From Erythrobacter sp. BLCC-B19 (GTDB lineage: Bacteria; Pseudomonadota; Alphaproteobacteria; Sphingomonadales; Sphingomonadaceae): a stretch of 64,000 bases of DNA. A program made the translations under genes and the position numbers. Every line of letters starts with the position of its first letter. Within the stretch, counting starts at the first letter, position 1. The notes under the pieces were generated by a model, which worked only from the letters and a program-made list of their open reading frames with translations, had not been told where the DNA came from and did no database searches. The stretch is taken from positions 1,510,001-1,574,000 of the forward strand of contig NZ_CP117516.1 in NCBI RefSeq assembly GCF_028621955.1, given 5' to 3'. Below are positions 5,563-34,387 of this stretch, one piece after another.

Positions 5563-5680
5563 CCCCTCCTGCCTGCGGGAGGGGAGCGAGACCTGGTCGC
5601 GCAGCGGCCTAGTCGCAGCGGGGTGGGCCTTCGCGACGGTTCGCTTTCCCACCCCCGCCCCCTCCCGCAAGCGGGAGGGG
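5563..5680. repeat. composite REP-like repeat, copy in reverse orientation
   Basis: Two G+C-rich hairpins, 5563-5584 and 5660-5679 (CCCTCCCGC-AA-GCGGGAGGG), flank a conserved core that reads on the minus strand as GGCCCACCCCGCTGCGACTA followed by GGTCTCGC. The same composite, in the opposite orientation, lies at 16921-17066, and a related unit at 16765-16838. It occupies the gap downstream of the VOC gene and the convergent LuxR-type gene. Confidence 0.8.
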
Positions 5681-5689
5681 GGTGTCAGC

Positions 5690-5820
5690 GCGCTGATCTC
5701 GGTCAGGTAGCGACCGCAAGGGCGTCCGCCCGCCCGCAGGTGCCCGGAACGGAGCGAAGCGAAGTGGAGGAATAGCACCGAGGACGACCCCGCGGAGGCG
5801 GGGTCGCAAATCAAGACCCC
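5690..5820. repeat. second intergenic G+C-rich palindromic element
   Basis: Downstream of the composite repeat is gene-free sequence with an 8-bp perfect stem, GACCCCGC (5786-5793) and GCGGGGTC (5798-5805), loop GGAG, preceded by the direct motif GGAGCGAAGCGAAG. It could serve as a bidirectional terminator between the convergent VOC and LuxR-type genes. I see no open frame here with coding character. Confidence 0.5.
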
Positions 5821-5845
5821 CGCGTGGAGGCACCCCCGCAATCAA

Positions 5846-6655
5846 TCAGTCGCTGGCCCCCAAATACCCCAGCTGCCCGGCCTTGAAGATCGTCTGGGCG
5901 CGGTTCACGCTGTCCAGCTTCTCGCCCGCGCGGTGGATGTGGTAGCGGATCGTGGCGTGCGACCGGTTGAGGATCATGCTGATCTCCTTGTCGGTCTTGC
6001 CGATCGCGGCCCAGCGCAGGCATTCCACTTCGCGCTTGGAGAGCACGCAGTCGGACGGGATGCGCCGCTTGGTGCGGTTGGCCTGGACATAGCCCGCCAC
6101 AAAGCACCGCGTCACCATCGCGAAGAGCGCGCCATATTCGGCGAATTCGGCCGAGAGGTCTTCCTTGTCGCGGTCTTCGCTGATGAAGCTGCACGCCGAA
6201 ATCTGGCCGAAGGGCAGGTGCACCGGAATCACGATCGCCGCCTTGCACAGCGCCCGGCGCTCGAAATCATTGAGGTCGATCTCGGCGAGGTAATGGTTGC
6301 GCCAACGGGTGTTGAAACCATGCGCGTTGACCCAGAACGGCTCGCTTTCATAGCGGCAGGCGCGCGGCAGCGGCGAGTGCAGGGCGAGCCGGTGATCCTC
6401 CCACCAGCGTGCGCCGTCATCCAGCCAGCGGAAGATATCGGCGTTGAGAATCGTGCCATCGGCATCGACCATCGGTTCCTTGGAGGAAATGTCGTCGCAC
6501 ACCGCGATCTGCATCCCGCGTTCCTGCGCGATTCGCGCGAGGTTCACCGCCGCATCGTGGATGTCCTCGGGACAGGTGATGGTGACGGATTCGAGCAGCT
6601 GTTCAAGCGACTCACGCCCTTGCGGCGTGCGCAATTCGACAACATTGGTGGCCAT
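5846..6655 (-). CDS. LuxR-family transcriptional regulator
   Basis: The 269-residue protein ends in a LuxR/FixJ-type helix-turn-helix (residues about 205-265; LSKREVECLRWAAIGKTDKE, then IRYHI and the NRAQTIFKAGQLG tail). The N-terminal 190 residues resemble an autoinducer-binding-type ligand domain (WVNAHGFNTRW, HLPFGQISACSF). There is no receiver domain or phosphorylatable Asp motif. It is transcribed divergently from the acyl-CoA synthetase gene with a 142-bp shared region, so that gene is its likely target. No LuxI-type synthase gene is present, so if it senses an acyl signal it is an orphan; a catabolite ligand is equally possible. Confidence 0.88.
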   Translation of the reverse strand: MATNVVELRTPQGRESLEQLLESVTITCPEDIHDAAVNLARIAQERGMQIAVCDDISSKEPMVDADGTILNADIFRWLDDGARWWEDHRLALHSPLPRACRYESEPFWVNAHGFNTRWRNHYLAEIDLNDFERRALCKAAIVIPVHLPFGQISACSFISEDRDKEDLSAEFAEYGALFAMVTRCFVAGYVQANRTKRRIPSDCVLSKREVECLRWAAIGKTDKEISMILNRSHATIRYHIHRAGEKLDSVNRAQTIFKAGQLGYLGASD

Positions 6656-6797
6656 GCTTTGTGGTGCTCCTCTCCAGCCCCGTCCGGTCTGCGCCGAGTC
6701 GGGAAACTAACGCAAGTTTGCAGAATGTCCTCATCATTTACGTAGGGGAACGAAGCGAGGGGCGAGGCTAGCGAAAGAGACAGGGAGAATTGAGCCG

Positions 6798-8411
6798 ATG
6801 GCGTTTGCGGGTGCGAATTTCGGGTATGTGCTGAAGGCTCTGGCAGGAGCAATTCCCTCCGGGCGACCCGCCTTGGTGCACGGGGACCGGGTGGTGACCT
6901 GGGGCGAATTCGATGCGATCACCGATGCCATTGCAGCGGGCCTTGTCGGGCGGGGACTGGGGCCGGGGGACATTGCCGGGCAGATGCTCCGCAATACGCC
7001 CGACTATATGCTCGCCTATTTCGGATGCGTGAAGGCGGGCCTGGTGCCGGTCAATGTGAACTACCACTACAAGCAGCGCGAGCTGGCGGACATTTTCAGC
7101 CGGTTCGGGCTGAAGGCGCTGTTCACCGAGACCGACTTTGCCGAAATCGCGCGTGAGGCAATGCCGGACGGAACGCTGACGGTGGATGTCGGCAGCGCGG
7201 ACTGGGCCGGGCTGTGCGATACGCCGCTGCCCGACAATTTTGCCATCCATGCCGACGCGCAAGCGCTGTTCCTGACCGCCACGGGCGGCACCACCGGGAT
7301 GCCCAAGGCGGTGATGTGGCCGATGGATCAGGCGTGGCAGGCGTTCAGCATCGGGGTGTGGCAACAGGGGCCGGGCCAGCCGCCATTCGTCGCCGCTTCG
7401 CTCGAAGAACAGGTCGCGCGGGCCGCCGCGATCGGCCCCGATCATCCGGCGAGCACATCCCCGCTGCTGCTGCTCTCGCCGCTGATGCACGGCGCGGGAC
7501 AGTTCACGGCGGTGATTCACCTGCTGAAAGGCGGCACGCTGGCGCTGCTGCCGGGGCCGAAATTCGATGCCGATCTGGCGCTGGACGAGGTCGCGCGGAT
7601 CGGCGCGCGCGGCATCTTCATCGTCGGCGATGCCTTCGCGCTGCCGCTCGCCGACCGGCTCGATGCGCGGGGCGATGGGGCCGCGGTGCTGGCGAGCTTG
7701 CGCAGCATCACCTCCTCGGGCGCGGTGTTCTCGGCCAGCCTCAAAGAGCGGCTGATCGCCCATCACCCCGCGCTGATGATCGTTGATGCGCTGGGTTCCT
7801 CCGAAAGCTCGGGCACCGGTATCGTCATCACCACGGCACAAGGATCGAGCGGCGGGGGCAAGTTCCAGCCCTTGCCGGGGCGCGAGACCAAGCTGTTCGA
7901 CGAGCAGTTCAAGGAGATTCCCCCCGGCACCGAGGGCGTCGGCATTGTCGCGCGCACCGGGCCGCTGCCGCTGGGCTATCTCGGCGAGGACGAGAAAAAC
8001 GCCCAGACCTTCCCCGTGATCGGCGGCAAACGCTGGCTGATGACCGGCGACCGCGCACGCTGGAGCCCCGATGGCAGCCTCGAATTCATCGGCCGCGACA
8101 ATATGTGCATCAACACCGGCGGCGAGAAGGTCTTCCCCGAGGAGGTCGAGGCGGTGCTGCTGGGCCATCCGGGGGTCAAGGACGTGCGCGTCGTCAGCCT
8201 TCCGGATGCGCGGTTCGGTCGCAAGGTCGTGGCGGTGGTGCAGCTGGACGGCGAGGTGGATGAGGCCGCGCTTGATGCCCACGCCCGCGCTGGCCTTGCG
8301 GGCTACAAGATCCCGCGGCTCTATCTGTTCACAGCGCAATCGCTCAGGCTCAACAACGGCAAGCCCGATTACAAGACCGCGCAAGGGATTGCCGACGCAT
8401 CTGCGGGGTAA
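6798..8411 (+). CDS. acyl-CoA synthetase (AMP-forming)
   Basis: A 537-residue ANL-superfamily ligase. The phosphate-binding loop TATGGTTGMPK is at residues 160-170, followed by the adenine-binding DALGSSESSGTG, the WLMTGD motif, the hinge region IGRDNMCINTGGEKVFPEE, and the C-terminal catalytic lysine in NNGKPDYK. It would activate a carboxylic acid to its CoA thioester. The substrate is unknown; the Rieske/SDR/VOC neighbours suggest an aromatic or steroid-type acid. The start is preceded by AGGGAGAA. The 3' end is followed by a strong hairpin at 8444-8481. Confidence 0.93.
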   Translation: MAFAGANFGYVLKALAGAIPSGRPALVHGDRVVTWGEFDAITDAIAAGLVGRGLGPGDIAGQMLRNTPDYMLAYFGCVKAGLVPVNVNYHYKQRELADIFSRFGLKALFTETDFAEIAREAMPDGTLTVDVGSADWAGLCDTPLPDNFAIHADAQALFLTATGGTTGMPKAVMWPMDQAWQAFSIGVWQQGPGQPPFVAASLEEQVARAAAIGPDHPASTSPLLLLSPLMHGAGQFTAVIHLLKGGTLALLPGPKFDADLALDEVARIGARGIFIVGDAFALPLADRLDARGDGAAVLASLRSITSSGAVFSASLKERLIAHHPALMIVDALGSSESSGTGIVITTAQGSSGGGKFQPLPGRETKLFDEQFKEIPPGTEGVGIVARTGPLPLGYLGEDEKNAQTFPVIGGKRWLMTGDRARWSPDGSLEFIGRDNMCINTGGEKVFPEEVEAVLLGHPGVKDVRVVSLPDARFGRKVVAVVQLDGEVDEAALDAHARAGLAGYKIPRLYLFTAQSLRLNNGKPDYKTAQGIADASAG

Positions 8412-11632: not shown

Positions 11633-13666
11633 ATGGATTTCAAGGCGAGCGACAACGTGCCCAATGACGCGGTGAATACCGGTGTGACCAATGAACTGGA
11701 TGCGGGCGCGCCTGCGGCGGGGGATGAAAAGGCTGTGACAATGAAAACCACTGATAGCGGTTCGGACGCACTGATCGCCGCCAAGGCGGGCGAAGCGCTC
11801 GTGGGCGCGATGGCGAGTGCGATGAAGGATGCCGCCAAGGCTGACAGCAAGAAGGTCAACGACCGCCGGTTCACGATCGTGACCGACGCCAGCCGCGACG
11901 CGCGCCTCACCGATTTCGGCAAGGACACGCTGACCGACCGCTATCTGCTGCCCGGCGAGGTCTATCAGGATCTCTTTGCCCGCGTGGCCGATGCCTATGC
12001 CGACGATCAGGAGCACGCCCAGCGGCTCTATGACTACATTTCGAACCTGTGGTTCATGCCCGCGACCCCCGTTCTCTCGAACGGCGGCACCAACCGCGGC
12101 CTGCCGATCTCCTGCTATCTCAATTCGGTCGAGGACAGCCTCGAAGGCATCGTCGGCACCTGGAACGAGAACGTGTGGCTCGCCTCGAAGGGCGGCGGGA
12201 TCGGCACCTATTGGGGCAATGTCCGCGGGATCGGCGAGCCGGTCGGCCTCAACGGCAAGACCAGCGGCATCATTCCTTTCGTGCGCGTGATGGACAGCCT
12301 GACGCTGGCGATCTCGCAGGGCAGCCTGCGCCGCGGGTCGGCCGCGTGCTATCTCGACATCAGCCACCCGGAAATCGAGGAGTTCCTCGAAATCCGCAAG
12401 CCTTCGGGCGACTTCAACCGCAAGGCGCTGAACCTCCACCACGGCGTGCTCGTCACCGACGAGTTCATGGAAGCCGTGCGCGAAGGCGCCGAGTTCGAAC
12501 TCAAGTCCCCGCGTGACGGCAGCGTGCGCGGCAAGGTCGATGCGCGTTCGCTGTTCCAGAAGCTGGTCGAAACCCGGCTGGCGACCGGCGAGCCCTACAT
12601 CGTCTTCAACGACACCGTGAACCGAATGATGCCCAAGCATCACCGCGATCTCGGCCTCAAGGTCTCGACTTCGAACCTGTGCTCGGAAATCACCCTGCCG
12701 ACCGGGATCGACCACCTCGGCAATGACCGCACGGCGGTGTGCTGTCTCTCCTCGCTCAACCTTGAAACCTGGGAAGAGTGGAAGGGCGACAAGCAGTTCA
12801 TCGAGGACGTGATGCGCTTCCTCGACAACGTGCTGCAGGACTATATCGACCGCGCGCCGGACGAGATGGCCCGCGCCAAGTATTCCGCCTCGCGCGAACG
12901 CAGCGTGGGCCTCGGGGTGATGGGCTTCCACTCCTACCTCCAGCAGAAGGGCGTCGCCTTCGAAAGCGCGATGGCCAAGGCGCTGAACCTCCAGATGTTC
13001 AAGCACATCCACGCCAAGGCCTCGGAAGCCTCGATGCTGCTGGCGCAGGAGCGCGGGCCGTGCCCCGATGCGGCCGATATGGGCGCGATGGAGCGGTTCA
13101 GCTGCAAGATGGCGATCGCGCCGACCGCGTCGATCTCGATCATCTGCGGCGGCACCTCGGCCTGCATCGAGCCGATCCCGGCCAATATCTACACCCACAA
13201 GACCCTGTCGGGCAGCTTCATCGTCAAGAACCCCTATCTTGAAAAGCTGCTCGAGAAGAAGGCGAAGAACTCGACCAATGTCTGGAACTCGATCCTCGAA
13301 CGCGGCGGATCGGTCCAGCACCTCGACTTCCTGACGCCGGAGGAGAAGGCGGTCTACAAGACCAGCTTCGAGATCGACCAGCGCTGGCTGCTCGAATTCG
13401 CCGCCGACCGCACGCCCTATATCGATCAGGCCCAGTCGCTGAACCTGTTCATCCCGGCCGATGTCGACAAGTGGGACCTGATGATGCTGCACTATCAGGC
13501 GTGGGAACGCGGCATCAAGTCGCTCTATTACCTGCGCTCCAAGAGCGTGCAGCGCGCCGGCTTCGTCGGCGGGGTGGAGGCGGACAACACCTCCGAAGCC
13601 CCCCGGATCGAACTCTCCGCCAGCGGGGAGCAGACCGATTACGAGGAATGCCTGAGCTGCCAGTAG
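11633..13666 (+). CDS. nrdA: ribonucleoside-diphosphate reductase, large subunit
   Basis: A class I ribonucleotide reductase alpha chain of about 677 residues from the ATG at 11633; an in-frame GTG at 11621 is possible. Redox cysteines are Cys161 (LPISCYLNS) and Cys370/371 (AVCCLSSLN). The radical-site motif N-x-C-x-E is SNLCSEITLP (Asn348, Cys350, Glu352), and the C-terminal swinging pair is in CLSCQ. The N-terminal 80 residues are Ala/Asp-rich and lack the ATP-cone normally present in NrdA, so dATP overall-activity control through that domain is not expected. It is followed by a small membrane-protein gene and then nrdB. Confidence 0.96.
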   Translation: MDFKASDNVPNDAVNTGVTNELDAGAPAAGDEKAVTMKTTDSGSDALIAAKAGEALVGAMASAMKDAAKADSKKVNDRRFTIVTDASRDARLTDFGKDTLTDRYLLPGEVYQDLFARVADAYADDQEHAQRLYDYISNLWFMPATPVLSNGGTNRGLPISCYLNSVEDSLEGIVGTWNENVWLASKGGGIGTYWGNVRGIGEPVGLNGKTSGIIPFVRVMDSLTLAISQGSLRRGSAACYLDISHPEIEEFLEIRKPSGDFNRKALNLHHGVLVTDEFMEAVREGAEFELKSPRDGSVRGKVDARSLFQKLVETRLATGEPYIVFNDTVNRMMPKHHRDLGLKVSTSNLCSEITLPTGIDHLGNDRTAVCCLSSLNLETWEEWKGDKQFIEDVMRFLDNVLQDYIDRAPDEMARAKYSASRERSVGLGVMGFHSYLQQKGVAFESAMAKALNLQMFKHIHAKASEASMLLAQERGPCPDAADMGAMERFSCKMAIAPTASISIICGGTSACIEPIPANIYTHKTLSGSFIVKNPYLEKLLEKKAKNSTNVWNSILERGGSVQHLDFLTPEEKAVYKTSFEIDQRWLLEFAADRTPYIDQAQSLNLFIPADVDKWDLMMLHYQAWERGIKSLYYLRSKSVQRAGFVGGVEADNTSEAPRIELSASGEQTDYEECLSCQ

Positions 13667-23611: not shown

Positions 23612-24193
23612 GTGGGAATTTCGCTTCAGAAGAGCCAGTCGGTCAGCCTCGCGAAGGAGGCCAAGCACGGACTGGAAAGGATCACCCTCGGCGTGGGCTG
23701 GGATGTCGCCAAGGGCGGCTTTTTCGGCGGATTGTTCGGCGGGGGCGGGGATATTGATCTCGACGCCTCGTGCATCACCTTCGATGCCGACAAGGCGGTG
23801 CTCGAACAGGTGTGGTTCGGCAAGCTGACCAACGCCGCCGGCACGATCCGCCACAGCGGCGACAACCTGACCGGCGAAGGCGACGGCGATGACGAGAGCA
23901 TCGCGATCCAGCTCGACAAGCTCGATCCCAAGGTCGAATATATCGTCCTTACCGTGAACAGCTTTCGCGGGCAGACCTTCGACAAGGTCGCCAATGCCTT
24001 TGCGCGGGTGGTCGACAATCGCAGCGGGCAGGAAATGGCCAAGTTCGTCATTTCCGACGCTGGCCCCCACACCGGGATCATCCTTGCCAGCCTCACCCGC
24101 AATGGCGGGCAGTGGGATTTCAAGGCGATTGGCGAGCGCACCGGCGGCCGCACCGTCCACGATCTGACCGCCCCGGCGCGCGCGATCCTGTAA
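23612..24193 (+). CDS. TerD-family stress protein (TerZ-like)
   Basis: The 193-residue TerD-domain protein starts at GTG 23612 with GGGGGA upstream. Calcium-binding signatures are DLDAS at residues 49-53 and [13 protein letters not shown] at 83-95. A glycine-rich insert (GGFFGGLFGGGGD) precedes the first motif, unlike the two other TerD proteins here. TerD proteins bind Ca2+ and are part of the tellurite/phage/colicin resistance (Ter) system. It opens the Ter island, and the following gene encodes TerA. Confidence 0.9.
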   Translation: MGISLQKSQSVSLAKEAKHGLERITLGVGWDVAKGGFFGGLFGGGGDIDLDASCITFDADKAVLEQVWFGKLTNAAGTIRHSGDNLTGEGDGDDESIAIQLDKLDPKVEYIVLTVNSFRGQTFDKVANAFARVVDNRSGQEMAKFVISDAGPHTGIILASLTRNGGQWDFKAIGERTGGRTVHDLTAPARAIL

Positions 24194-24257: not shown

Positions 24258-25445
24258 ATGCAGTTGCAACGCGGAGAAAAGCGCTCTCTCGCCGATCTGG
24301 GCGTTGGCCCGCAGTGCGAGGTCAAGGTCGATTTCGGGATGGACGGGATCGACATTGCCGCCTTCGGGCTCGAACCCGGGCAGAAGATCGGCGATGACCG
24401 CTATGTCGTGCTGTTCTCCAACCCTGCCACGCCGGGCGGCGAGGTGCGCATGGCGACGAGCGGCAATTCGGCGAGCTTCACCCTCGATCTCGACCGCCTG
24501 CCCGCGAGCATCGACCGCATCGTCTTCACCGCGACGCATGATACCCGCGCCGTGGGTGAAAGCCGCCCGCTGACGGTGACGCTCGATGGCGGCAAGGCGA
24601 GCTTCGATGCCGCCGCCGCGCTCACCAACGAAAAGGCGGTGATGCTGGCGGAAGTCTATCGCCATTCCTCGGGCTGGAAGATCGGGACGATTGCCGCAGG
24701 GTTCGCGGGCGGTCTGGCCGCGCTGATCGGGCATTTCGGCGGCGAGGTGGATGAACCTGCCCCGGCCCCCGCTCCGCCGCCGCCCCCTCCGGCACCTCCG
24801 CCGCCTCCTCCTCCACCCCCGCCGCCGCCCGCCGCGCCGGTGAGCCTCAAGAAGATCAGCCTCGACAAGGGCAATTCCTCGGTCAGCCTCAAGAAGCAGG
24901 GCAACACCTTCGGCGAGATCGTGCTCAACTTGAACTGGACGGCGCGCACTCAGAAGAAGGGCTTCTTCGGCGGCAAGCAGCAGCTTGATCTCGATCTTGG
25001 CGTGATCTTCGAGATGGCCGACGGCATGGGCGCAGGCTGCATCCAGGCGCTGGGCCGCAGCTTCGGCTCGTATCACCAGCCGCCCTTCATCGAACTGTCG
25101 GGCGATGACCGCACCGGCGCGGTCGCGGCGGGTGAGACGATCCGCGTCAACGGCCAGTATTTCGATTACATCCGCCGCATCGGCGTGTTCGCGCTGATCT
25201 ATGAAGGTGCGCCCAACTGGGCCGAGACCGATGGCGTGGTGCGCCTCAACATTCCCGGCCAGCCCGAAATCGAAGTCCGCATGGACGAGGTGAACAGCCG
25301 CGAACGCCTGTGCGGGATCGCGGTGATCGACAATGTCGGCGGCGAATTGAAGATGAGCCGGTTGATGCGCTTCTACCAGAGCCAGAAACCGTTCGCCGAG
25401 GATATTGGCGTCTATCTGCAATGGCAGCGCGGCAGTAAGGACTAA
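24258..25445 (+). CDS. terA: TerA-type protein: TerD-like domain, Pro tract, TerA domain
   Basis: This 395-residue protein has three parts. Residues 1-165 are TerD-like (ending AEVYRHSSGWKIGTIAAGFA, GGLAALIGHFG) but lack the DLDAS and GDN..GDDE calcium motifs. Residues 168-192 are a proline-rich tract, nearly uninterrupted. Residues 195-395 form the TerA domain, beginning VSLKKISLDKG and including FFGGKQQLDLDLG. The Pro tract probably keeps the two lobes apart or binds a partner. It lies between a TerD gene and the DUF475 gene and is presumably part of a membrane-associated Ter complex. Confidence 0.88.
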   Translation: MQLQRGEKRSLADLGVGPQCEVKVDFGMDGIDIAAFGLEPGQKIGDDRYVVLFSNPATPGGEVRMATSGNSASFTLDLDRLPASIDRIVFTATHDTRAVGESRPLTVTLDGGKASFDAAAALTNEKAVMLAEVYRHSSGWKIGTIAAGFAGGLAALIGHFGGEVDEPAPAPAPPPPPPAPPPPPPPPPPPPAAPVSLKKISLDKGNSSVSLKKQGNTFGEIVLNLNWTARTQKKGFFGGKQQLDLDLGVIFEMADGMGAGCIQALGRSFGSYHQPPFIELSGDDRTGAVAAGETIRVNGQYFDYIRRIGVFALIYEGAPNWAETDGVVRLNIPGQPEIEVRMDEVNSRERLCGIAVIDNVGGELKMSRLMRFYQSQKPFAEDIGVYLQWQRGSKD

Positions 25446-25488
25446 GCAACAAGACGGCCGTATCACGCGGCCAAGGGGATCTGATTCA

Positions 25489-26541
25489 ATGTTCAAGCAT
25501 TTTGGCGGCTCGCTGCTGTTTACCGCGGTAGGCCTTGCGCTGGGCGGATGGTATGGCTGGGCGCTGACCGGCACGGTCGATGGCGTGCTGTCGATGGTGT
25601 GGATCTGCGCCGTTCTGGCGGTGCTGGAAGTCTCGCTGTCGTTCGATAACGCCGCGGTCAACGCCTCGGTCCTGAAGGACATGGACCCGGTCTGGCAGCA
25701 GCGATTCCTCACCTGGGGGATCGCGATTGCGGTGTTCGGGATGCGGATCGTCTTCCCGCTGGTGATCGTGATGGTCGCGGCGAAGATCGGGCCGGTCGAA
25801 GCGCTCAACCTCGCGCTCAATTCGCCCAAGGAATACCAGACCATCGTGGAAGGCGCGCATGTCGGCCTGATGGGCTTTGGCGGGGCGTTCCTCGGGATGG
25901 TCGGCCTGAACTACTTCTTCGACAGCGACAAGGAAGTGGACTGGATCGCCGCCATCGAACGCCCGCTGGCGAAGGTCGCCGATATCGAGGCGGTGTCCAT
26001 CGGCCTCGTGCTCGCGGGCACCTGGGCGGTGTCGACCGTGCTGCCGGGTGAAGAGGCGCTGACCTTCTTAACCGCCGCCATCGCCGGGCTGCTGACCTAT
26101 CTCGCGGTCGAAGTGGTCAACCACGTGCTCGAACCCCCCACGCCCTCGACCGGCGATGTCGCCAAGGCGGGCTTTGGGGCGTTCCTCTATCTCGAAGTGC
26201 TCGATGCGAGCTTCAGCTTCGACGGGGTGATCGGGGCCTTCGCGCTCACCAACAACCTCATCATCATCGCCATCGGCCTTGGCATCGGCGCGATGTTCGT
26301 GCGCTCGATGACGATCTTCCTCGTCAAGAAGGGCACCATGAGCGAATACCGCTACCTCGAGCACGGCGCATTCTATGCGATCCTCGCGCTCGCGGTGATC
26401 ATGTACCTCAACACCTTCATGCACATTTCCGAAGTCATCACCGGCCTGATCGGGGCGGTGCTGATCGGGCTCGCCTTCTGGTCTTCGGTTCGCTGGAACA
26501 AGGCCAATCCGGACGGCGAGCCGGAGGATGCGCTGGCGTAA
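25489..26541 (+). CDS. DUF475/TerC-like integral membrane protein
   Basis: The 350-residue protein has about nine hydrophobic helices. TerC-family acidic intramembrane motifs appear twice: EVSLSFDNAAVN in the first half and EVLDASFSFDGVIGA in the second, so a pair of Asp/Asn residues could coordinate a metal within the membrane. Length and motifs fit DUF475, the version that accompanies TerD proteins. In Ter systems TerC-like proteins are thought to anchor TerD/TerB proteins to the membrane; TerC relatives also export manganese. Confidence 0.9.
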   Translation: MFKHFGGSLLFTAVGLALGGWYGWALTGTVDGVLSMVWICAVLAVLEVSLSFDNAAVNASVLKDMDPVWQQRFLTWGIAIAVFGMRIVFPLVIVMVAAKIGPVEALNLALNSPKEYQTIVEGAHVGLMGFGGAFLGMVGLNYFFDSDKEVDWIAAIERPLAKVADIEAVSIGLVLAGTWAVSTVLPGEEALTFLTAAIAGLLTYLAVEVVNHVLEPPTPSTGDVAKAGFGAFLYLEVLDASFSFDGVIGAFALTNNLIIIAIGLGIGAMFVRSMTIFLVKKGTMSEYRYLEHGAFYAILALAVIMYLNTFMHISEVITGLIGAVLIGLAFWSSVRWNKANPDGEPEDALA

Positions 26542-26597: not shown

Positions 26598-27176
26598 ATG
26601 GCTATCTCGCTGTCGAAGGGGGGCAATGTCAGCCTCTCGAAGGAAGCGCCCGGGCTTGACCGGATCATGGTCGGCATGGGCTGGGACGTGCGCGCCACCG
26701 ATGGTCAGGATTTCGACCTCGACGCGTCGGCCTTCGTCTGCGGTGCGGGCGGCAAGGTCCGCTCCGACATGGACTTCTGCTTCTACAACAACATGAAGGT
26801 CGCCGACGGCGCGGTCGTCCACCAGGGCGACAACCGCACCGGCGAAGGCGACGGCGATGACGAGCAGATCGAGATCACCCTCTCGAGGCTGCCCGCCGAT
26901 GTCGACAAGGTCGCGGTGGTGGTGACGATCCACAATGGCGACCAGAACGGCCAGACCTTCGGCCAGGTGTCGAACGCCTTCATCCGTCTCGTCGATGCCA
27001 GCAACAACAACGAAGTCGTGCGCTTCGACCTGTCGGAAGATGCCTCGGTCGAAACCGCGATGATCCTCGGCGAAGTCTATCGCCATGGTGCCGAGTGGAA
27101 GTTCCGCGCGGTCGGGCAAGGCTTCAAGGGCGGTCTCGGCCCGCTCGCCGGGCACTTCGGCGTCAACGTCGGCTAA
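26598..27176 (+). CDS. terD: TerD calcium-binding stress protein
   Basis: A canonical 192-residue Ter[21 protein letters not shown] at the start, DLDAS at residues 40-44 and [13 protein letters not shown] at 77-89, with [17 protein letters not shown] closing the fold. It binds two Ca2+ ions by family analogy. AAAGGAGACG precedes the ATG. It shares its N-terminal 20 residues almost exactly with the next gene's product, so the two arose by tandem duplication. Confidence 0.95.
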
Positions 27177-27243
27177 TCGGGCAAGGCGCGCAGGGGCGGC
27201 AACACCGGCCCTGCGCGCCGCCAACTACAGGGAAGCACACACA

Positions 27244-27825
27244 ATGGCAGTTTCGCTCAGCAAGGGCGGCAATGTCTCGCTCTCGAAGGAAGCACCGGGC
27301 CTCAACGCGGTCACGGTCGGCCTCGGCTGGGACGTGCGGCGCACCGATGGCGCGGCCTTCGATCTCGACGCCTCGGCGTTTGTGGTGGGGGAGAACGACA
27401 AGGTTCTCTCGGACGCGCATTTCATCTTCTACAACAACAAGACCTCGCCCGATGGCGCGGTGGTCTATAGCGGCGACAACCGCACCGGCGAAGGCGCGGG
27501 CGATGACGAGACGATCCTGATCGATTTCGGCAAGCTGACCCCGCAGGCCAAGAAGGTGGTGATCGCTGTCACCATCCATGAAGGCGAGATCAACGGCCAG
27601 AACTTCGGTTCGGTGCAGAACGCCTTTGCGCGCGTGGTCAATCAGGCCGACGGCAAGGAACTGGCGCGTTACGACCTGTCGGAAGACGCTTCGATGAATG
27701 TCGCGATGATCTTCGTCGAGCTCTATCGCGGCCCTCAGGGCGACATCAAGGTCAAGGCGATCGGTGAAGGCTGGCGCAGCGGGCTTGCGGGTCTGGCGGG
27801 CGCGATGGGCGTCAACATCGGCTAA
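27244..27825 (+). CDS. TerD paralogue (TerE-like)
   Basis: A 193-residue TerD protein starting at 27244, duplicate of the upstream one: [25 protein letters not shown] at 40-44 and [13 protein letters not shown] at 77-89, one Asp of the acidic loop being replaced by Ala. It ends AGAMGVNIG. The two TerD genes are separated by 67 bp, and the TerD-protease fusion gene begins 12 bp after this one. Confidence 0.95.
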
Positions 27826-27837
27826 GGCGGCAAGGCG

Positions 27838-28989
27838 ATGCAGCCCGCCCAGCCCGGACAGCGTGTGCCAATCAGCCCCAAGGCCGATTGCCGCATCACC
27901 TTGCGCGGGAGCGAAGGGCAGCGCATCGCGATTGCCGCGATCAGTCAGGCTGGCGGCGGACGCGTGCTCGCCTTCGAACAGATCGACCCGCAGCACTGGT
28001 TCATGGATGGCATGGCCGAGCTGGAGGGCGATTTCGAGATCGTCGCCTATGTGATGGATGATCGCCACGGCGGATTTACCAATCACGCCTACCCGATCGC
28101 AGTCGAGGTCGACGGCACCACCTGGCAGATGCCCGAGCCGACCGAACAGCTTGCCGCGGTGATCCTCGCGGAAGTCTATACCCGCAATGGCGAGCGGCGG
28201 ATGAAGCTGTCGAACGAGGGCTTCACCTTCGGGATCGATGCCTATGTCCGAGCGCGCAATCTTGGCCCGGTGGAGGTGCCGTTCCGCAACACGCCGGGGG
28301 TGCCCTTGCCCGGCAACGGCCCCGTTCCGCATCCTGACGGGCGCGGGTCGGGTCGTCCGGCGCCGGTGCCGGGGCAATTGCTGGGCAGCGGCAGCGGGGT
28401 GCTGATCGCGCCCGACATCATCGTCACCAATGCCCATGTGATCGAGGACGGCCAGCGCTTCGAAATCGGCCGCGCGCGCGATGTTGCCGTGCCGCTGGCG
28501 GTGGATGTTCAGCATGATCTGGCGCTGCTGCGCTGCACGACCCACGGCAGCCCGCTGCCGCTGCGGATCGGATCGCCGCTGTTCCTTGGCGAAGACGTGA
28601 TGGCGGCAGGCTTCCCGCTGATCGACGTGCTGGGGGCCGATCTCAAGGTGACCACCGGCAATGTCTCGGGGCTGACGGGGGGTGGCGGCGATGTGTCGCG
28701 CTTCCAGTTCAGCGCGCCCATTGGTTCAGGATCGTCGGGCGGGGCGATCATCGACGAATGTGGCAATCTGGTCGGCATCACCTCGGCTAGCCTTGCGCAC
28801 CAGAATATGCGCGAACGCGGGTCGATTTCGGAGAACGTCAATTTCGGCATCCGCGCCGCGCTGGTGTTCGAAATGGCCGCCGCTGCCGGGGCCGATCTGC
28901 CGCCCCTGCCGATTGCGACCGACAATCTGCGCCGCAATGTCGTCGCCCGGGCGCGCAATGCGGTGGTCAGCATCCTCGTCCATGCGTGA
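27838..28989 (+). CDS. TerD-like domain fused to trypsin-like serine protease
   Basis: A 383-residue two-domain protein. Residues 1-145 have the TerD-like pattern (AAVILAEVYTRNGERRMKLSNEG mirrors the TerD C-terminal region) without the calcium motifs. After a Pro/Gly linker (150-180) comes a chymotrypsin/HtrA-type protease, with catalytic His200 (VTNAHV), Asp227 (QHDLALL) and Ser300 (GSSGG). No signal peptide and no PDZ domain, so it should act in the cytoplasm, perhaps recruited to Ter complexes. Its stop overlaps the next start by 8 bp. Its target is unknown. Confidence 0.85.
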   Translation: MQPAQPGQRVPISPKADCRITLRGSEGQRIAIAAISQAGGGRVLAFEQIDPQHWFMDGMAELEGDFEIVAYVMDDRHGGFTNHAYPIAVEVDGTTWQMPEPTEQLAAVILAEVYTRNGERRMKLSNEGFTFGIDAYVRARNLGPVEVPFRNTPGVPLPGNGPVPHPDGRGSGRPAPVPGQLLGSGSGVLIAPDIIVTNAHVIEDGQRFEIGRARDVAVPLAVDVQHDLALLRCTTHGSPLPLRIGSPLFLGEDVMAAGFPLIDVLGADLKVTTGNVSGLTGGGGDVSRFQFSAPIGSGSSGGAIIDECGNLVGITSASLAHQNMRERGSISENVNFGIRAALVFEMAAAAGADLPPLPIATDNLRRNVVARARNAVVSILVHA

Positions 28990-30142
28990 ACCCCGAGCCG
29001 CTCCGGCGGCGCCGCAGCACAGCATGGCAGTCGATCTGCCGACCGGGCGGCTGACCCTCTCAGGAGTCGCACCGCAGCAGGTTGGTGAACTTTGCGATTT
29101 CGCCGCGCGGGCCAATCCCAAGCGCGGGTTCCTGATCGTCTCGAAGGTGCTCGGCCGCCATTTGCCGACCGCGCCGCACGCGTTGCGGGCCGCTGCCGAT
29201 GGGCTCGCCGCCCAGATTCCCGCCGATCTTCCCGCCCCCGTCCTGTTCTGCGGGATGGCCGAAACCGCGACAGGTCTGGCGCAGACGGTGTGGGCGGCAT
29301 GGCGGTCGCGGGTTCCAGCTGTCGCCAGCGCCTATGTCCAGTCGAGCCGCCAGACGGTGCAGGGCGCGCGGGTGTTGTGCCGCTTCGAGGAAGGCCACAG
29401 CCACGCCGCCAGCCACATGGTGCAGGTGGCGGGCGCAATCGAGGCACTGCTGCCCGCCGTGCGCAGCCTTGTCATCATCGACGACGAATGCAGCACCGGC
29501 AGCACCTTTGTCGAAGCCGCCGATGCGCTGGTCGCCGCGCTGCCGGGCGTTGAGACTGTCGCGGTTGCCAGCCTTACCGATTGGAGCGGCGGGGCGTTCC
29601 TGCCGCGGATGCCGCGCCCTGCCAGCGCCCATTCGCTGATCGCGGGCACACTCCACTGGACGCCCGGCGCAGGTCAGGCCGCCGCCACCCTCGCCGCCAC
29701 CGCCAACCGTCACGGCACCGCGCCCGCATCGGGGATGCGCAGCCGCACCGGGCTGCTCGAACCCGAAGCCGCCACCCGCGCCCCCGTCACCGCCGCGCCG
29801 GGGGAGCGGGTGCTGGTGCTCGGCGATGGCGAGCACGCCTATGAAGCCTTGCGGATCGCCGAGGAGATCGCGGCGCAAGGGGGCATCGCGGCGGTGCAAT
29901 CGATCACCCGCACCCCCGCCATGCTCGGCCACGCGATGCAAAGCGTCACCACGCTGGCGGACGCCTATGGATCGGGCGCGGCGTGCCATGTCTACAACCT
30001 CCTCGCCCACCGTCCGGATCGCATCGTGATCGCCGCCGAAGTCGCAGGCGCGCAGGCCGACGAACTGCGCCGCTGGCTCGCCGAAGCGGGCGCGGCTGTC
30101 ATGGTCGAGACACTGCTGTGCCGCTATGGCGAGGGCGCATGA
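28982..30142 (+). CDS. Ter-associated phosphoribosyltransferase with TRSP-like C-terminus
   Basis: A 386-residue protein whose ATG at 28982 lies within the end of the protease gene. It has a type I phosphoribosyltransferase core: FLIVSKVLGRHLP early, GMAETATGLAQ at 91-101 and the PRPP loop VIIDDECSTGST (Asp167, Asp168, Glu169). The C-terminal third (VLVLGDGEHAYEALRIAEEI, CHVYNLLAHRPDRIVI, VMVETLLCRYG) fits the TRSP domain that follows this PRTase in Ter operons. It is predicted to make or transfer a ribosyl-linked metabolite. The next gene overlaps by 4 bp. Confidence 0.82.
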   Translation: MREPRAAPAAPQHSMAVDLPTGRLTLSGVAPQQVGELCDFAARANPKRGFLIVSKVLGRHLPTAPHALRAAADGLAAQIPADLPAPVLFCGMAETATGLAQTVWAAWRSRVPAVASAYVQSSRQTVQGARVLCRFEEGHSHAASHMVQVAGAIEALLPAVRSLVIIDDECSTGSTFVEAADALVAALPGVETVAVASLTDWSGGAFLPRMPRPASAHSLIAGTLHWTPGAGQAAATLAATANRHGTAPASGMRSRTGLLEPEAATRAPVTAAPGERVLVLGDGEHAYEALRIAEEIAAQGGIAAVQSITRTPAMLGHAMQSVTTLADAYGSGAACHVYNLLAHRPDRIVIAAEVAGAQADELRRWLAEAGAAVMVETLLCRYGEGA

Positions 30143-30894
30143 CCGCGCCGCGCCCCCTCATTCTCGCCGACCTCGACGACAGCCTGTTCCAGACCCGCCC
30201 CAAATGCGGGGACTGGCCCGAAGGCGACCTCAAGCTGATGAGCCGTCTCGCCGATGGCACCCCCAGCGGCTATGCCACTCCGCCGCAGCAGGCGCTGCTG
30301 GCATGGCTGGGCGAGGGCGAGCTGGTGCCCGTCACCGCCCGCGCCCGCGAGGTGCTGGCGCGGGTCGATATCGCGCAGGCTCCGGCGATCTGCGCCAATG
30401 GCGGCTGCATCCTCACCGCCGACGGGCAGCCTGACCGCGTGTGGCACGACCTTCTCACCGCCGAAGCCCGCAGCGGCGAAGCCCCTGCCGCGCTCTATCC
30501 GGCACTGACCGATGGACTGGACGCCGCCGCTTTCCGCTACTGGCTGGTGAGCGAGGACGGGCTCGATCTCTACATCGTCATCAAATCGAACCACGGCGAT
30601 GTTCCCGCTCTGACCGCGCTGACCGACACCTTGCGCGTGAGCCTGCCCCAAGGCTGGCGCATCCATGCCAACGGCAACAACCTCGCCTTCCTGCCCCCCT
30701 GGCTGAGCAAGCGCGCGGCGGTGCGGTATTTCCTCCAAAGCGTCCGCCGCGACACGCCGGAGCGGCTGGTTATCGGGATCGGCGACAGCTGGTCGGATGT
30801 CGGCTTTCTCGACCTCGCCGACATGGCGATGATCCCCACCGCCGCGCAGCTGTGGCAGCACCACATCGCCGCCGGGCACGATTGGGTCGACTGA
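30139..30894 (+). CDS. HAD-superfamily phosphatase of the Ter biosynthetic module
   Basis: A 251-residue HAD hydrolase. Motif I is LADLDDSLF with nucleophile Asp11 and acid Asp13, motif II is VPVTAR (Thr66), motif III is the Lys of LSKRAAV, and motif IV is IGIGDSWSD. A large C2-type cap lies between motifs II and III, as in Cof/sucrose-phosphatase-like enzymes that hydrolyse sugar or nucleotide phosphates. The 4-bp ATGA overlap with the PRTase gene implies coupled translation and a shared pathway. The substrate is unknown. Confidence 0.85.
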   Translation: MTAPRPLILADLDDSLFQTRPKCGDWPEGDLKLMSRLADGTPSGYATPPQQALLAWLGEGELVPVTARAREVLARVDIAQAPAICANGGCILTADGQPDRVWHDLLTAEARSGEAPAALYPALTDGLDAAAFRYWLVSEDGLDLYIVIKSNHGDVPALTALTDTLRVSLPQGWRIHANGNNLAFLPPWLSKRAAVRYFLQSVRRDTPERLVIGIGDSWSDVGFLDLADMAMIPTAAQLWQHHIAAGHDWVD

Positions 30895-30898
30895 GGCG

Positions 30899-31972
30899 AT
30901 GCGCGGTTTTTCCGGCTCCTATGCGCCTGAGGATGTGACCTTCCTTCTCAAGCCCGCAGAGGTCGCGCTGACCGACGTGGCTCAGAAGGAGGCGCTGATC
31001 CAGTCGGGCGCGCGGCATTATTCGGAAATGCTGTCGGAGGAACGCCTGCCTGATGCGCGCTATTTCGAACTCTACCGCGCCGCGCTGGCGCGCAATGGCG
31101 GGCGGCTGCGGGCGGATGTCGAAACGCTGGCCGATGCCATCGCTGCGCGCCCCGCTACGGCGCGAAGCTGCACCCTGATCTCGCTCGCCCGCGCGGGGAC
31201 GCCCATTGGCGTGCTGCTGCGCCGCGCGCTGGTGCGGCGCGGGATCGATACCGCGCATTATTCGATCAGCATCATCCGGGGCCGGGGGATCGACCGGGTG
31301 GCGCTCGCCCACATTGCCGCTGCGCGGGGCACCGCTGATGCCGTGTTCGTCGATGGCTGGACGGGCAAGGGCGCGATCACCGGGGAGTTGCACGCGAGCC
31401 TTGGCGATGGCGCGACCGGCTTTGCCCCCTTCCTCGCGGTCATCGCCGATCCGGCCGGCTGCGCCAGCCTTGCCGCCACCGCGCAGGACTATCTCATCCC
31501 CTCGGGCATCCTCGGCGGGATCGTCTCGGGGCTGGTCAGCCGCTCGGTGCTGTCCGATGCGCTGGTGGGCGCGGGCGAGTTCCACGCCTGCCGCATCCTT
31601 GCCGAACACGCCGACGCCGACCAGTCGCGCGCCTTTGTCGATGCGGTCGAGGCGGCGCGCCTGCCGGACGGTGCGGCCCATCCCGGCTGGAGCGCCGCGC
31701 AGGCTCCCGCCGACAACGCCGCCTGCACCGCGCTGGTCGAGGGGGTGATGGCCGAATTTGCCGTCACCAATCTCAACCGCATCAAGCCCGGCATCGCCGA
31801 GGCCACCCGCGCGGTGCTGCGCCGGGTTCCGCAAGCGGTGTTCGTGGCCGATCGGACTGACCCGGAAGTGGCGCATTTGTTGCACCTTGCCGCACAAGTT
31901 GACGTCAGCGTCCTCGAACGGGAACTTGGTAACTACCGCGCCGTAACACTGATTGCGAAAGCAGGAGACTGA
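30899..31972 (+). CDS. Ter-associated PRTase-like (StiP/PRTase_1) protein with PELOTA-like end
   Basis: A 357-residue protein beginning with the family hallmark FSGSYAPEDVTFLLK. The PRTase-like core has CTLISLARAGTPIGVLLRR (91-109) and VFVDGWTGKGAITGEL (149-164) in place of a usual PRPP loop. The last 75 residues (VTNLNRIKPGIAEATRAVLR, AVFVADRTDPEVAHLLHLA) resemble the PELOTA-type RNA-binding domain reported at the end of this family. Databases also call it StiP cysteine protease; I favour the PRTase reading because of the operon partners. It starts 4 bp after the HAD gene. Confidence 0.75.
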   Translation: MRGFSGSYAPEDVTFLLKPAEVALTDVAQKEALIQSGARHYSEMLSEERLPDARYFELYRAALARNGGRLRADVETLADAIAARPATARSCTLISLARAGTPIGVLLRRALVRRGIDTAHYSISIIRGRGIDRVALAHIAAARGTADAVFVDGWTGKGAITGELHASLGDGATGFAPFLAVIADPAGCASLAATAQDYLIPSGILGGIVSGLVSRSVLSDALVGAGEFHACRILAEHADADQSRAFVDAVEAARLPDGAAHPGWSAAQAPADNAACTALVEGVMAEFAVTNLNRIKPGIAEATRAVLRRVPQAVFVADRTDPEVAHLLHLAAQVDVSVLERELGNYRAVTLIAKAGD

Positions 31973-31974
31973 GC

Positions 31975-32889
31975 ATGACCAAAGCGGTCGAACTGGGCGC
32001 GACGCTCTATATCCCGGTGCAGCACCCGCGCCTCGCGGACGTGCTGGCCGGGGCCAATCCTGATTTGCGCTCGGTGGTGATCTGCCTTGAGGATTCGCTC
32101 CACGAGGCTGACGTCGGTGCGGCGCAGGCGGTGTTTGGCGCGATCCTGCGGATGCTGGAGGCCGCGCCGCCGCGCCTGATCGCCTATGCCCGGCCGCGCA
32201 ATCCCGCAATGCTCAGCTGGATGCAGACGCATCCGGGGATCGAGCGCTTGGCGGGATTTGTCCTGCCCAAGATCACCACCGCCAATATTGCCGGTTGGCT
32301 GGCGCGGCTGGAGCGGCCCGAACACGGGATCATGCCCACCATCGAAAGCGCCGAGGCCTTCGACCGCGCGGCACTGATGCAGATGGCTGGCACCCTCGCC
32401 CCGCTGGGCGAGCGCGTCCATGCGGTCAGGATCGGCGGGAACGACATCCTCAACCTGCTCGGCGTGCGCCGCTCGCGCCACCGCACCGCCTATGACGGGC
32501 CTCTGGGCCTCGCGATTGCGACCATGGCCAGCGTCTTCCTGCCCGAGGGGCTCGCGCTCTCGGCCCCGGTGTTCGAACACTACGCCCAGACCGACCTGCT
32601 GCGCGAGGAAGTCGCGCGCGATCTGGAGCATGGCCTGCTCACCAAGACCGCGATCCACCCCTCGCAGGTCGCGATCATCCACGAAGCGCTGCGCCCACTG
32701 GCGAGCGAGGTCGAGGAAGCCCGCGCGATCCTTGCGCGCGAGGCCCGCGCGGTGTTCGGGCACGCGGGCAGTATGTGCGAGCCGACGACCCATGCTCGCT
32801 GGGCGGCGGGCGTGCTGGATCGGGTTGCGGTGCATGGCGTTGCGGAGACAGCGCCCGGCCGCCCACGCAAGCCCACCCGGGCTGCCTGA
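31975..32889 (+). CDS. CitE/HpcH-like lyase of the Ter module
   Basis: A 304-residue TIM-barrel protein of the HpcH/HpaI aldolase-citrate lyase beta family. Seen are ICLEDSLHEAD (Glu39, Asp40), FVLPKIT (Lys99), MPTIESAEAF (Glu124), RIGGNDILN (Arg152, Asp157) and KTAIHPSQV. Family members form or cleave C-C bonds of CoA esters or keto acids using Mg2+. It begins 2 bp after the stop of the PRTase_1-type gene. In Ter operons this enzyme is proposed to help build the unknown metabolite. Confidence 0.85.
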   Translation: MTKAVELGATLYIPVQHPRLADVLAGANPDLRSVVICLEDSLHEADVGAAQAVFGAILRMLEAAPPRLIAYARPRNPAMLSWMQTHPGIERLAGFVLPKITTANIAGWLARLERPEHGIMPTIESAEAFDRAALMQMAGTLAPLGERVHAVRIGGNDILNLLGVRRSRHRTAYDGPLGLAIATMASVFLPEGLALSAPVFEHYAQTDLLREEVARDLEHGLLTKTAIHPSQVAIIHEALRPLASEVEEARAILAREARAVFGHAGSMCEPTTHARWAAGVLDRVAVHGVAETAPGRPRKPTRAA

Positions 32890-32903
32890 CGCCGCCGCTT
32901 GCC

Positions 32904-33854
32904 GTGACCGCGATCACCAAACGCCGCCACGCCGAACTGGCCGGGCAGGCGATGAAATTCGTCGCCGAGCTGCTGTTGATCGAGCCCTTGAGCCCCGCCT
33001 TCGATCACAAGCTCGAAGGCATCGAGGCGCTCGGGCGCGACGCGATCACCAGCCTCGCCGCGCGGCAGGCAGCGAGCCTCGCCCCGGTCGCTCCGCCCAA
33101 GACCGAGGCCATCGCCCGCGCCATCGCCGCCCTGCGCGCGCTGGCCGAGAGCCTTGCGCCCTTGCGCGAGGGCAATCTGTCCGGCGGGGGCAAGCGCTTC
33201 GGCCTGTTCGCCGCCAAGCCTGACCCGGCGGCCTATTTCCGCCGCTACCTGGCCGCGCAGGGCCAGATCGAGGAGGCGCTCGCCAGCCTCACCCGCGAAC
33301 GCGACGCCCTGCTGCGCGCCAATACCGCGCTGGCGACCGAGCGGGCGGGCCTGGCCGCGCCGCTTGCGGCGCTGGCCGAACACGCGCTGTTTGCCGAGGA
33401 GGTCGCCCTCACCCTCGCCGCGCGGGCCGAGGCGCTCGCGGCGCGCGAGCCGATGACAGCGCGGCGGCTGCAATCGGACGCGCTCCATGTCGTGCGCACC
33501 CGCCAGCGCGACATCGCCGAGGCGCAGGCCTTGGCGCAGCAGGCGGTGGCGGTGCGCGCGGTCGTGACCGAAACCAATGCGCGCCTCGTCGAAGCCATCG
33601 AGCAGACCACCGCGATGATGGTGCAGGTGCTGCGCACCGCCATCGCCGCCGCGCGCACCTTGGCGCAGCAGGAGCTGGTGCTTGACCGGATCGCGAGCCT
33701 CAACCGCGCGGCGAGCAACCTCATCACCGAGGATGCACCCGTCCCCACCGACGCCAGCGCCGCCGCCTTGCAGGAGGCCTTCGTGCGCTTGACCGATGCG
33801 CTCGACCGGCTCGATGGCGAGCGCGCGGCGATCAGCGGTCTTTCGCCGCGCTGA
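32904..33854 (+). CDS. telA: TelA-family toxic anion resistance protein
   Basis: About 316 residues starting at GTG 32904, 14 bp after the CitE-like gene. It is all-helical with long coiled-coil segments, matching TelA: YFRRYLAAQGQIEEALASLT, ADALHVVRTRQRDI-like middle, QTTAMMVQVLRTAIAAA and LVLDRIASLNRAASNLI near the end. TelA proteins confer tellurite and other anion or antibiotic tolerance by an unknown mechanism. It is slightly shorter than stand-alone TelA (about 380), lacking part of the N-terminus. Confidence 0.85.
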   Translation: MTAITKRRHAELAGQAMKFVAELLLIEPLSPAFDHKLEGIEALGRDAITSLAARQAASLAPVAPPKTEAIARAIAALRALAESLAPLREGNLSGGGKRFGLFAAKPDPAAYFRRYLAAQGQIEEALASLTRERDALLRANTALATERAGLAAPLAALAEHALFAEEVALTLAARAEALAAREPMTARRLQSDALHVVRTRQRDIAEAQALAQQAVAVRAVVTETNARLVEAIEQTTAMMVQVLRTAIAAARTLAQQELVLDRIASLNRAASNLITEDAPVPTDASAAALQEAFVRLTDALDRLDGERAAISGLSPR

Positions 33855-33913: not shown

Positions 33914-34387
33914 GTGGGTCTGTTCGATTCGCTCAGGAAGATGTTTGCCGCGCCCGATCCGGAAGGCCCCCCGGCCTCCGCCGCGCCGTCGCCTGCGCGT
34001 GGGCCTGCCTTCGACTATAACGACGACCGCATCCCCGATGGCGCCAAGGGCAAGATCCGCGGCATCCTCGCCAGCCTGACCGAAGTCGAGGCAATGATGG
34101 ACCGCGAACAGGTGCAGGCTGTCAGCCGCACCGAGATCGAGCTGATGCGCGATGAACACCTGCCCAAGCTGGTAAAGAGCTACATCGACATCCCGCCCGC
34201 CCACCGTGCGGAAATCTTCCGCAAGGCCGGCAAGTCGGCGAGCTTCATCCTCGAAGAAAGCCTCGACACGATGCAGAGCCGCATCGACGAGATCGCCCGC
34301 AATCTGGCGCAGCACGATCTCGATGCCTTCTCCAGCAACGCCGCCTTCATCAGCCGCCGTTACAGCGACAGCGATCCGTTTCGGTAA
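33914..34387 (+). CDS. hypothetical partner of TelA
   Basis: The 157-residue protein starts at GTG 33914 with AGGGGAG some 12 bases upstream. A Pro/Ala-rich stretch (residues 13-30) follows the MGLFDSLRKMF amphipathic start; the rest is helical (IRGILASLTEVEAMMDREQ, LVKSYIDIPPAHRAEIFRK). I do not recognise a named family, but it ends the Ter island and is coded 59 bp after telA, so a joint role is likely. The amphipathic N-terminal helix could touch the membrane. Confidence 0.7.
   Translation: MGLFDSLRKMFAAPDPEGPPASAAPSPARGPAFDYNDDRIPDGAKGKIRGILASLTEVEAMMDREQVQAVSRTEIELMRDEHLPKLVKSYIDIPPAHRAEIFRKAGKSASFILEESLDTMQSRIDEIARNLAQHDLDAFSSNAAFISRRYSDSDPFR

Follow-up and report, generated by a model that had tools for sequence, protein, structure and literature searches.

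A TerD-trypsin fusion gene

We analyzed a stretch of 64,000 nucleotides from Erythrobacter sp. BLCC-B19 (contig NZ_CP117516.1, positions 1,510,001 to 1,574,000; "the window"), in which one gene of a Ter island joins a TerD-like domain to a trypsin-like serine protease. The open reading frame (ORF) of this gene (TPROT, here called the fusion) begins with ATG at 27838 and ends with TGA at 28987-28989 on the forward strand, as the first-pass annotation, made from the sequence alone, had placed it. The gene and its parts are given below with the predicted local distance difference test score (pLDDT) of the model where it matters.

27838..28989, + strand: TerD-trypsin fusion gene, 383 amino acids
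27838..28272, + strand: residues 1-145, divergent TerD-fold domain, TerA-like, without the canonical acidic motifs
28273..28377, + strand: residues 146-180, variable linker (mean conservation, 0.32; pLDDT below 50 at residues 153-171)
28378..28896, + strand: residues 181-353, HtrA/S1C-type protease domain
28897..28986, + strand: residues 354-383, conserved C-terminal tail (modeled helix at 365-375 and strand at 376-382)

The ratio of nonsynonymous to synonymous substitution rates (dN/dS) of the fusion is 0.18 to 0.21 against 8 of its 11 near orthologues (loci L005 to L015 in our numbering), so the gene is real beyond chance. For conservation we used an alignment of 95 rows (A2), from which 25 of the 120 listed matches had been left out as fragments or near-copies. 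The C-terminal end is conserved across this alignment and finishes in the modeled strand; the tail is possibly an inhibitory or docking element.

The protease half, judged by its sequence, looks like a working enzyme. Pfam recognizes Trypsin_2 (PF13365) at residues 185 to 314 with an E value of 1.5e-22, and the Trypsin family matches at 7.6e-6. Fold (chymotrypsin/HtrA) and sequence both place the domain in the S1C/HtrA type, and its relatives of solved structure are DegS, DegP, DegQ, and HtrA. The intact triad claimed in the first-pass annotation is borne out: His200 (CAT, 28435-28437), Asp227 (GAT, 28516-28518), and Ser300 (TCG, 28735-28737) are invariant in all 95 rows of A2 and in 11 of 11 divergent members, and all 250 listed relatives, including the rows dropped from A2 and a gammaproteobacterial set, retain them. 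As for a competent triad in the predicted structure, the residues are intact and conserved in sequence, but the ten-residue block with Ser300 (291-300) has a mean pLDDT of only 65. No PDZ domain was found in the fusion by Pfam at E values up to 1, and just 30 residues follow the protease domain. Nor does the protein reach the NCBIfam cutoff for Do-family proteases (59.6 bits versus 416.2).

The TerD half is unproven by Pfam alone, since PF02342 (TerD) matches residues 97 to 137 only, with an E value of 0.28 and 11.1 bits, below the Pfam cutoff of 25.3; we therefore tested it separately. The cutoff is reached by some relatives (L024/L046, L025/L047, L026, and L043). In a profile-to-profile comparison (hhalign), the best match of the N-terminal domain was the TerA-like family, at 96.6% over 132 columns, followed by canonical TerD at 60.2% over 41 columns; 15 other families scored at most 0.5%. 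We then folded the N-terminal domain alone, because the protease filled the match list when the whole protein was used, and it modeled as a TerD beta-sandwich, the fold proposed for it earlier.

The island's three canonical TerD proteins carry two acidic motifs, which we take to be calcium sites. Both motifs are absent from 95 of 95 fusion N-terminal domains in A2, so the description of this domain as lacking the calcium motifs was right; they are present in 78 and 80, respectively, of the 81 canonical TerD ORFs of the loci and in 3 and 0 of the 30 TerA-like ORFs. The title of structure 2kxt mentions calcium binding. Given the absence of the motifs, the N-terminal domain of the fusion is TerA-like, and it probably does not bind calcium in the manner of TerD. 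Any link of the fusion to metal would then have to be indirect.

The fusion had been called cytoplasmic, and this fits the result of a hydropathy scan, a simple one rather than a signal predictor. Over a span of 19 residues, hydropathy within the first 43 residues of the fusion peaks at 0.34; across 95 relatives, the median is 0.53 and the highest value is 1.42. For nine protease-domain relatives without TerD, which come from 9 of the 13 outgroup loci, the first 53 residues give 1.29 to 2.37, and their N termini look by eye like export leaders; four of the nine carry Sel1 repeats. Beyond the N terminus, 15 of the 95 fusion relatives exceed 1.6. As a test of export, that threshold passes 5 of the 9 leader-bearing comparison proteins; we dropped it, since it misses the other 4, and quote the values instead.

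The Ter island and its counterparts in other genomes

The other genes of the island are as follows.

23612..24193, + strand: TerD protein (PF02342, 1.7e-45)
24258..25445, + strand: TerA-like protein, TerD domain divergent (PF02342, 3.7e-25), from the family that the fusion N-terminal domain matched best by profile (hhalign)
25480..26541, + strand: TerC-family membrane protein (PF04332, 2.1e-108; PF03741, 1.9e-22)
26598..27176, + strand: canonical TerD (PF02342, 1.3e-83)
27247..27825, + strand: canonical TerD (PF02342, 3.7e-70), ending 12 bases before the fusion gene
28982..30142, + strand: PRTase_2/TRSP phosphoribosyltransferase (PRTase; PF15609, 3.1e-50)
30139..30894, + strand: HAD-like phosphatase, in a conserved place (no Pfam match; TIGR01482, 2.3e-5, below cutoff)
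30899..31972, + strand: StiP-PELOTA protein (PF11202, 2.8e-91; PF15608, 8.3e-25)
31975..32889, + strand: C-C bond lyase, citrate-lyase-like (PF15617, 3.8e-76)
32838..33854, + strand: TelA protein, start uncertain, overlapping the lyase gene as drawn (PF05816, 1.8e-29)
33914..34387, + strand: small conserved protein of unknown family, the last gene of the island

As first described, the fusion has a TerD pair (26598-27825) on one side and the PRTase, HAD, StiP, and lyase genes on the other. Its reported overlap with the next gene depends on the start chosen: 8 bases are shared if the PRTase begins at ATG 28982, and none if it begins at the in-frame ATG 29024. The small protein at 33914-34387 has no Pfam or NCBIfam match above cutoff; relatives of it are present in 14 of 36 annotated loci.

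A genome scan returned 18 loci, 16 of them with a full fusion (L005 to L020; 54 to 87% identity); in the other two, from records named Bacteroidota, only the protease part matched. Within the family sample, 3 of 149 genomes carry the fusion, our own counted. The names in this branch belong to Sphingomonadales and Asticcacaulis (Erythrobacter, Porphyrobacter, Novosphingobium, Sphingobium, Sphingopyxis, Croceicoccus, and others), and where its records are named, they are called simply serine protease or hypothetical. Apart from small departures, and from some loci that contig ends shorten, the gene order is TerD, TerA-like, TerC, TerD, TerD, [ATP-grasp], fusion, [DUF4236-like], PRTase, HAD, StiP, lyase, TelA, and the small protein, where brackets mark genes found in some loci. 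ATP-grasp precedes the fusion in 5 of the 16. The PRTase follows the fusion directly in 12 of the 16 alphaproteobacterial loci and after one DUF4236-like gene in the other 4 (L016, L017, L019, and L020); this intervening gene has about 350 codons, and its label comes from the annotation of a similar gene.

With six further loci added (L026, L042, L043, L046, L047, and L051), all 22 inspected loci have the PRTase either adjacent to the fusion or separated from it by one gene; each of the 22 was found via the fusion or via StiP. The two genes are co-directional in 21 and divergent in L043. No match to ATP-grasp or TerB turned up in the 11 loci most closely related to that of the window (L005 to L015), a search that did not extend to the rest of our own genome. 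In many related modules, ATP-grasp and/or TerB is present.

Relation to known proteins

The architecture was already in print. In 2008, a survey that covered the serine proteases of prokaryotes (BMC Genomics 9:549; PMC2605481) had a table entry for TerD-Tryp, YP_273108.1 from Pseudomonas syringae, and a passage of it called the protein functionally uncharacterized to its authors' knowledge. As in that entry, TerD is N-terminal to the trypsin-like domain in the window fusion. Unlike the fusion, the P. syringae-named relatives that we found have a TerD domain that Pfam recognizes. Proteins annotated as "trypsin-like peptidase domain-containing protein" with PF02342 and PF13365 occur in Pseudomonas, Burkholderia, and other bacteria, an example being the L026 protein from Stutzerimonas stutzeri plasmid CP140617. 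A search with it gave 464 relatives, and in 120 of the 120 listed, with names, where given, such as Pseudomonas, Burkholderia, Microbulbifer, and Ventosimonas, both domains were precomputed. L026 resembles the fusion in length, domain order, triad, and place before the PRTase, HAD, StiP, and lyase genes; it differs in sequence (27% identity), in having an ATP-grasp gene upstream, and in having a TerB gene in the row.

Closer to home, the TerA-like protein at 24258-25445 represents the best profile match of the N-terminal domain, and its family also mostly lacks the canonical motifs; unlike the fusion, it has no protease domain. The fusion shares fold, triad, and sequence with DegS/HtrA (S1C) proteases, from which it differs by having no PDZ domain, apparently no leader-like N terminus, and a TerD domain in front. 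We found no experimental study of the fusion in the open-licence literature. The earlier statement that no characterized example exists therefore stands as far as our searches reach, but the architecture itself has been in print since 2008. What we add is that the Sphingomonadales/Asticcacaulis branch consists of TerA-like TerD fusions and that the link to the PRTase gene is constant.

Possible role of the fusion

On sequence and modeling, the protein combines a TerD fold, a protease fold, a conserved triad, and no canonical acidic motifs, and its gene is tightly packed between TerD and PRTase genes. The reading that we favor, tentatively, is a cytoplasmic HtrA/S1C-type serine protease docked on the Ter complex by its TerA-like TerD domain and carrying out signal-gated processing. 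It is consistent with the location between Ter and pathway genes, with a domain of TerA type, and with a protease that resembles DegS. The Ter, fusion, and pathway genes would form one transcript. The TerD domain of the fusion would sense no metal on its own but would dock on canonical TerD, TerA, or TerC partners. DegS-type proteases are activated by peptide or partner binding, and a stress signal passing through the Ter complex may switch the fusion on in the same way. The activated protease would then cleave a single protein or a small number of them in a limited way, setting the output of the neighboring biosynthetic pathway or resetting the complex. A passage of PMC8115787 calls the communication of the Ter stress complex with the biosynthetic genes unclear. 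The fusion is a concrete, testable candidate for this link: half of it is a Ter domain, and its gene stays beside the PRTase. That proteolysis is recruited to Ter assemblies, as first suggested, is plausible from the TerA-like domain and the constant gene neighbors. In a more speculative form, which we regard as doubtful, a cytoplasmic HtrA-type protease would have the TerA-like domain instead of PDZ as its regulatory handle, the Ter membrane/metal complex would control a nucleoside-like metabolite pathway by regulated proteolysis, and the C-terminal strand would perhaps serve as a built-in inhibitor or docking element.

Some observations weigh against a docked, gated protease. The loops near the active site are modeled poorly, with blocks 261-270, 291-300, and 321-330 at pLDDT 53, 65, and 50. 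StiP is found above cutoff in 15 of 397 genomes of the phylum sample and in 5 of 387 of the class sample; outside our own genome, the fusion is present in 2 of 17 distinct StiP loci (L042 and L043) and missing from 15, an absence that is less sure in 4 of the 17 (L031, L032, L033, and L035), where the contig ends at most 1.9 kb upstream of the PRTase. The fusion is thus an optional part: most sampled modules do without the protease, and the pathway is independent of it.

The solved relatives of the protease domain also suggest a quality-control enzyme, with TerD bringing an HtrA-like degrader to proteins damaged by metal or oxidative stress. Many of the DegS, DegP, DegQ, and HtrA proteases degrade misfolded proteins. 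The lack of a Pfam PDZ domain and the company that the gene keeps with one small pathway make this rather unlikely. Another candidate role is that of a biosynthetic peptidase, which would remove a peptide or an aminoacyl group from a product or intermediate in the nucleoside-like metabolite pathway: the PRTase is never more than one gene away in the 22 loci, ATP-grasp is the co-directional upstream neighbor in 8 of them (in L042 it is also upstream, but oriented the other way), and the same gene row holds StiP, an annotated cysteine protease. However, the 11 closest loci have no ATP-grasp match, and work on a small molecule needs no TerD tether, so we think this role improbable.

The first-pass annotation proposed a stress- or phage-triggered effector, and a protease activated by infection or colicin could halt cell growth. 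According to a passage of PMC12054061, ter loci have been associated with inhibition of phages and with resistance to colicins, and terA insertions lowered phage inhibition only (citing a 1995 paper); the N-terminal domain of the fusion is TerA-like, and trypsin-like domains occur in nucleoside triphosphate-dependent conflict systems, as described in part of PMC7159879. The phenotypes in PMC12054061 were reported there for ter loci generally, not for the fusion gene. With PADLOC, the window protein matched RT-Protease_XI at 6.7e-11 and Avs1b at 0.002, and six other island proteins had no match. The RT-Protease_XI match is generic, because three trypsin proteins without TerD and with leader-like N termini (L054, L055, and L058) match more strongly (2.9e-18, 6.1e-21, and 4.2e-18). 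Furthermore, in those Erythrobacteraceae loci that are long enough to show it, the island lies between conserved FolD and MarC genes and YciI and PutA genes, no obviously variable spot, and the L026 protein has no match among 50,697 phage records. Specific support for an effector is therefore lacking, and we consider this role quite improbable; the observation of the fusion was right, on several independent lines, but its casting as an unprecedented effector does not hold up. Part of PMC7159879 also describes an effector position in other systems where almost every trypsin domain is inactive, which would suit a catalytically silent peptide-binding module that keeps the protease fold. Conservation of His, Asp, and Ser in every one of the 250 listed relatives makes this extremely unlikely.

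Origin and variants of the fusion

A search of the 397 phylum genomes with the L026 protein gave matches at 1e-20 in 25, with both domains covered in one (G497). This search missed our own protein and scored at most four candidates per genome; it is therefore insensitive to the window's branch, and fusion genes far from any module could have escaped it. A protease-domain tree of 31 rows places the 18 fusion proteins at two changes, and one change was found in 0% of 200 bootstrap trees; the inner nodes are weakly supported, and the tree has a very long outgroup branch, so that a single origin is neither shown nor excluded by this tree. In two fusion-less genomes of the same genus, about 24 and 27 kb separate MarC from PutA and MarC is reversed, so that no simple empty site is discernible. 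In the gammaproteobacterial-type module of L042, the fusion frame (12307-13311) is broken by a stop; this module may not need the protease, or the assembly may contain an error. Finally, L016 encodes an extra TerD-family protein (5657-6949), the second half of which, on visual inspection, resembles a von Willebrand A-type domain, as in TerF.
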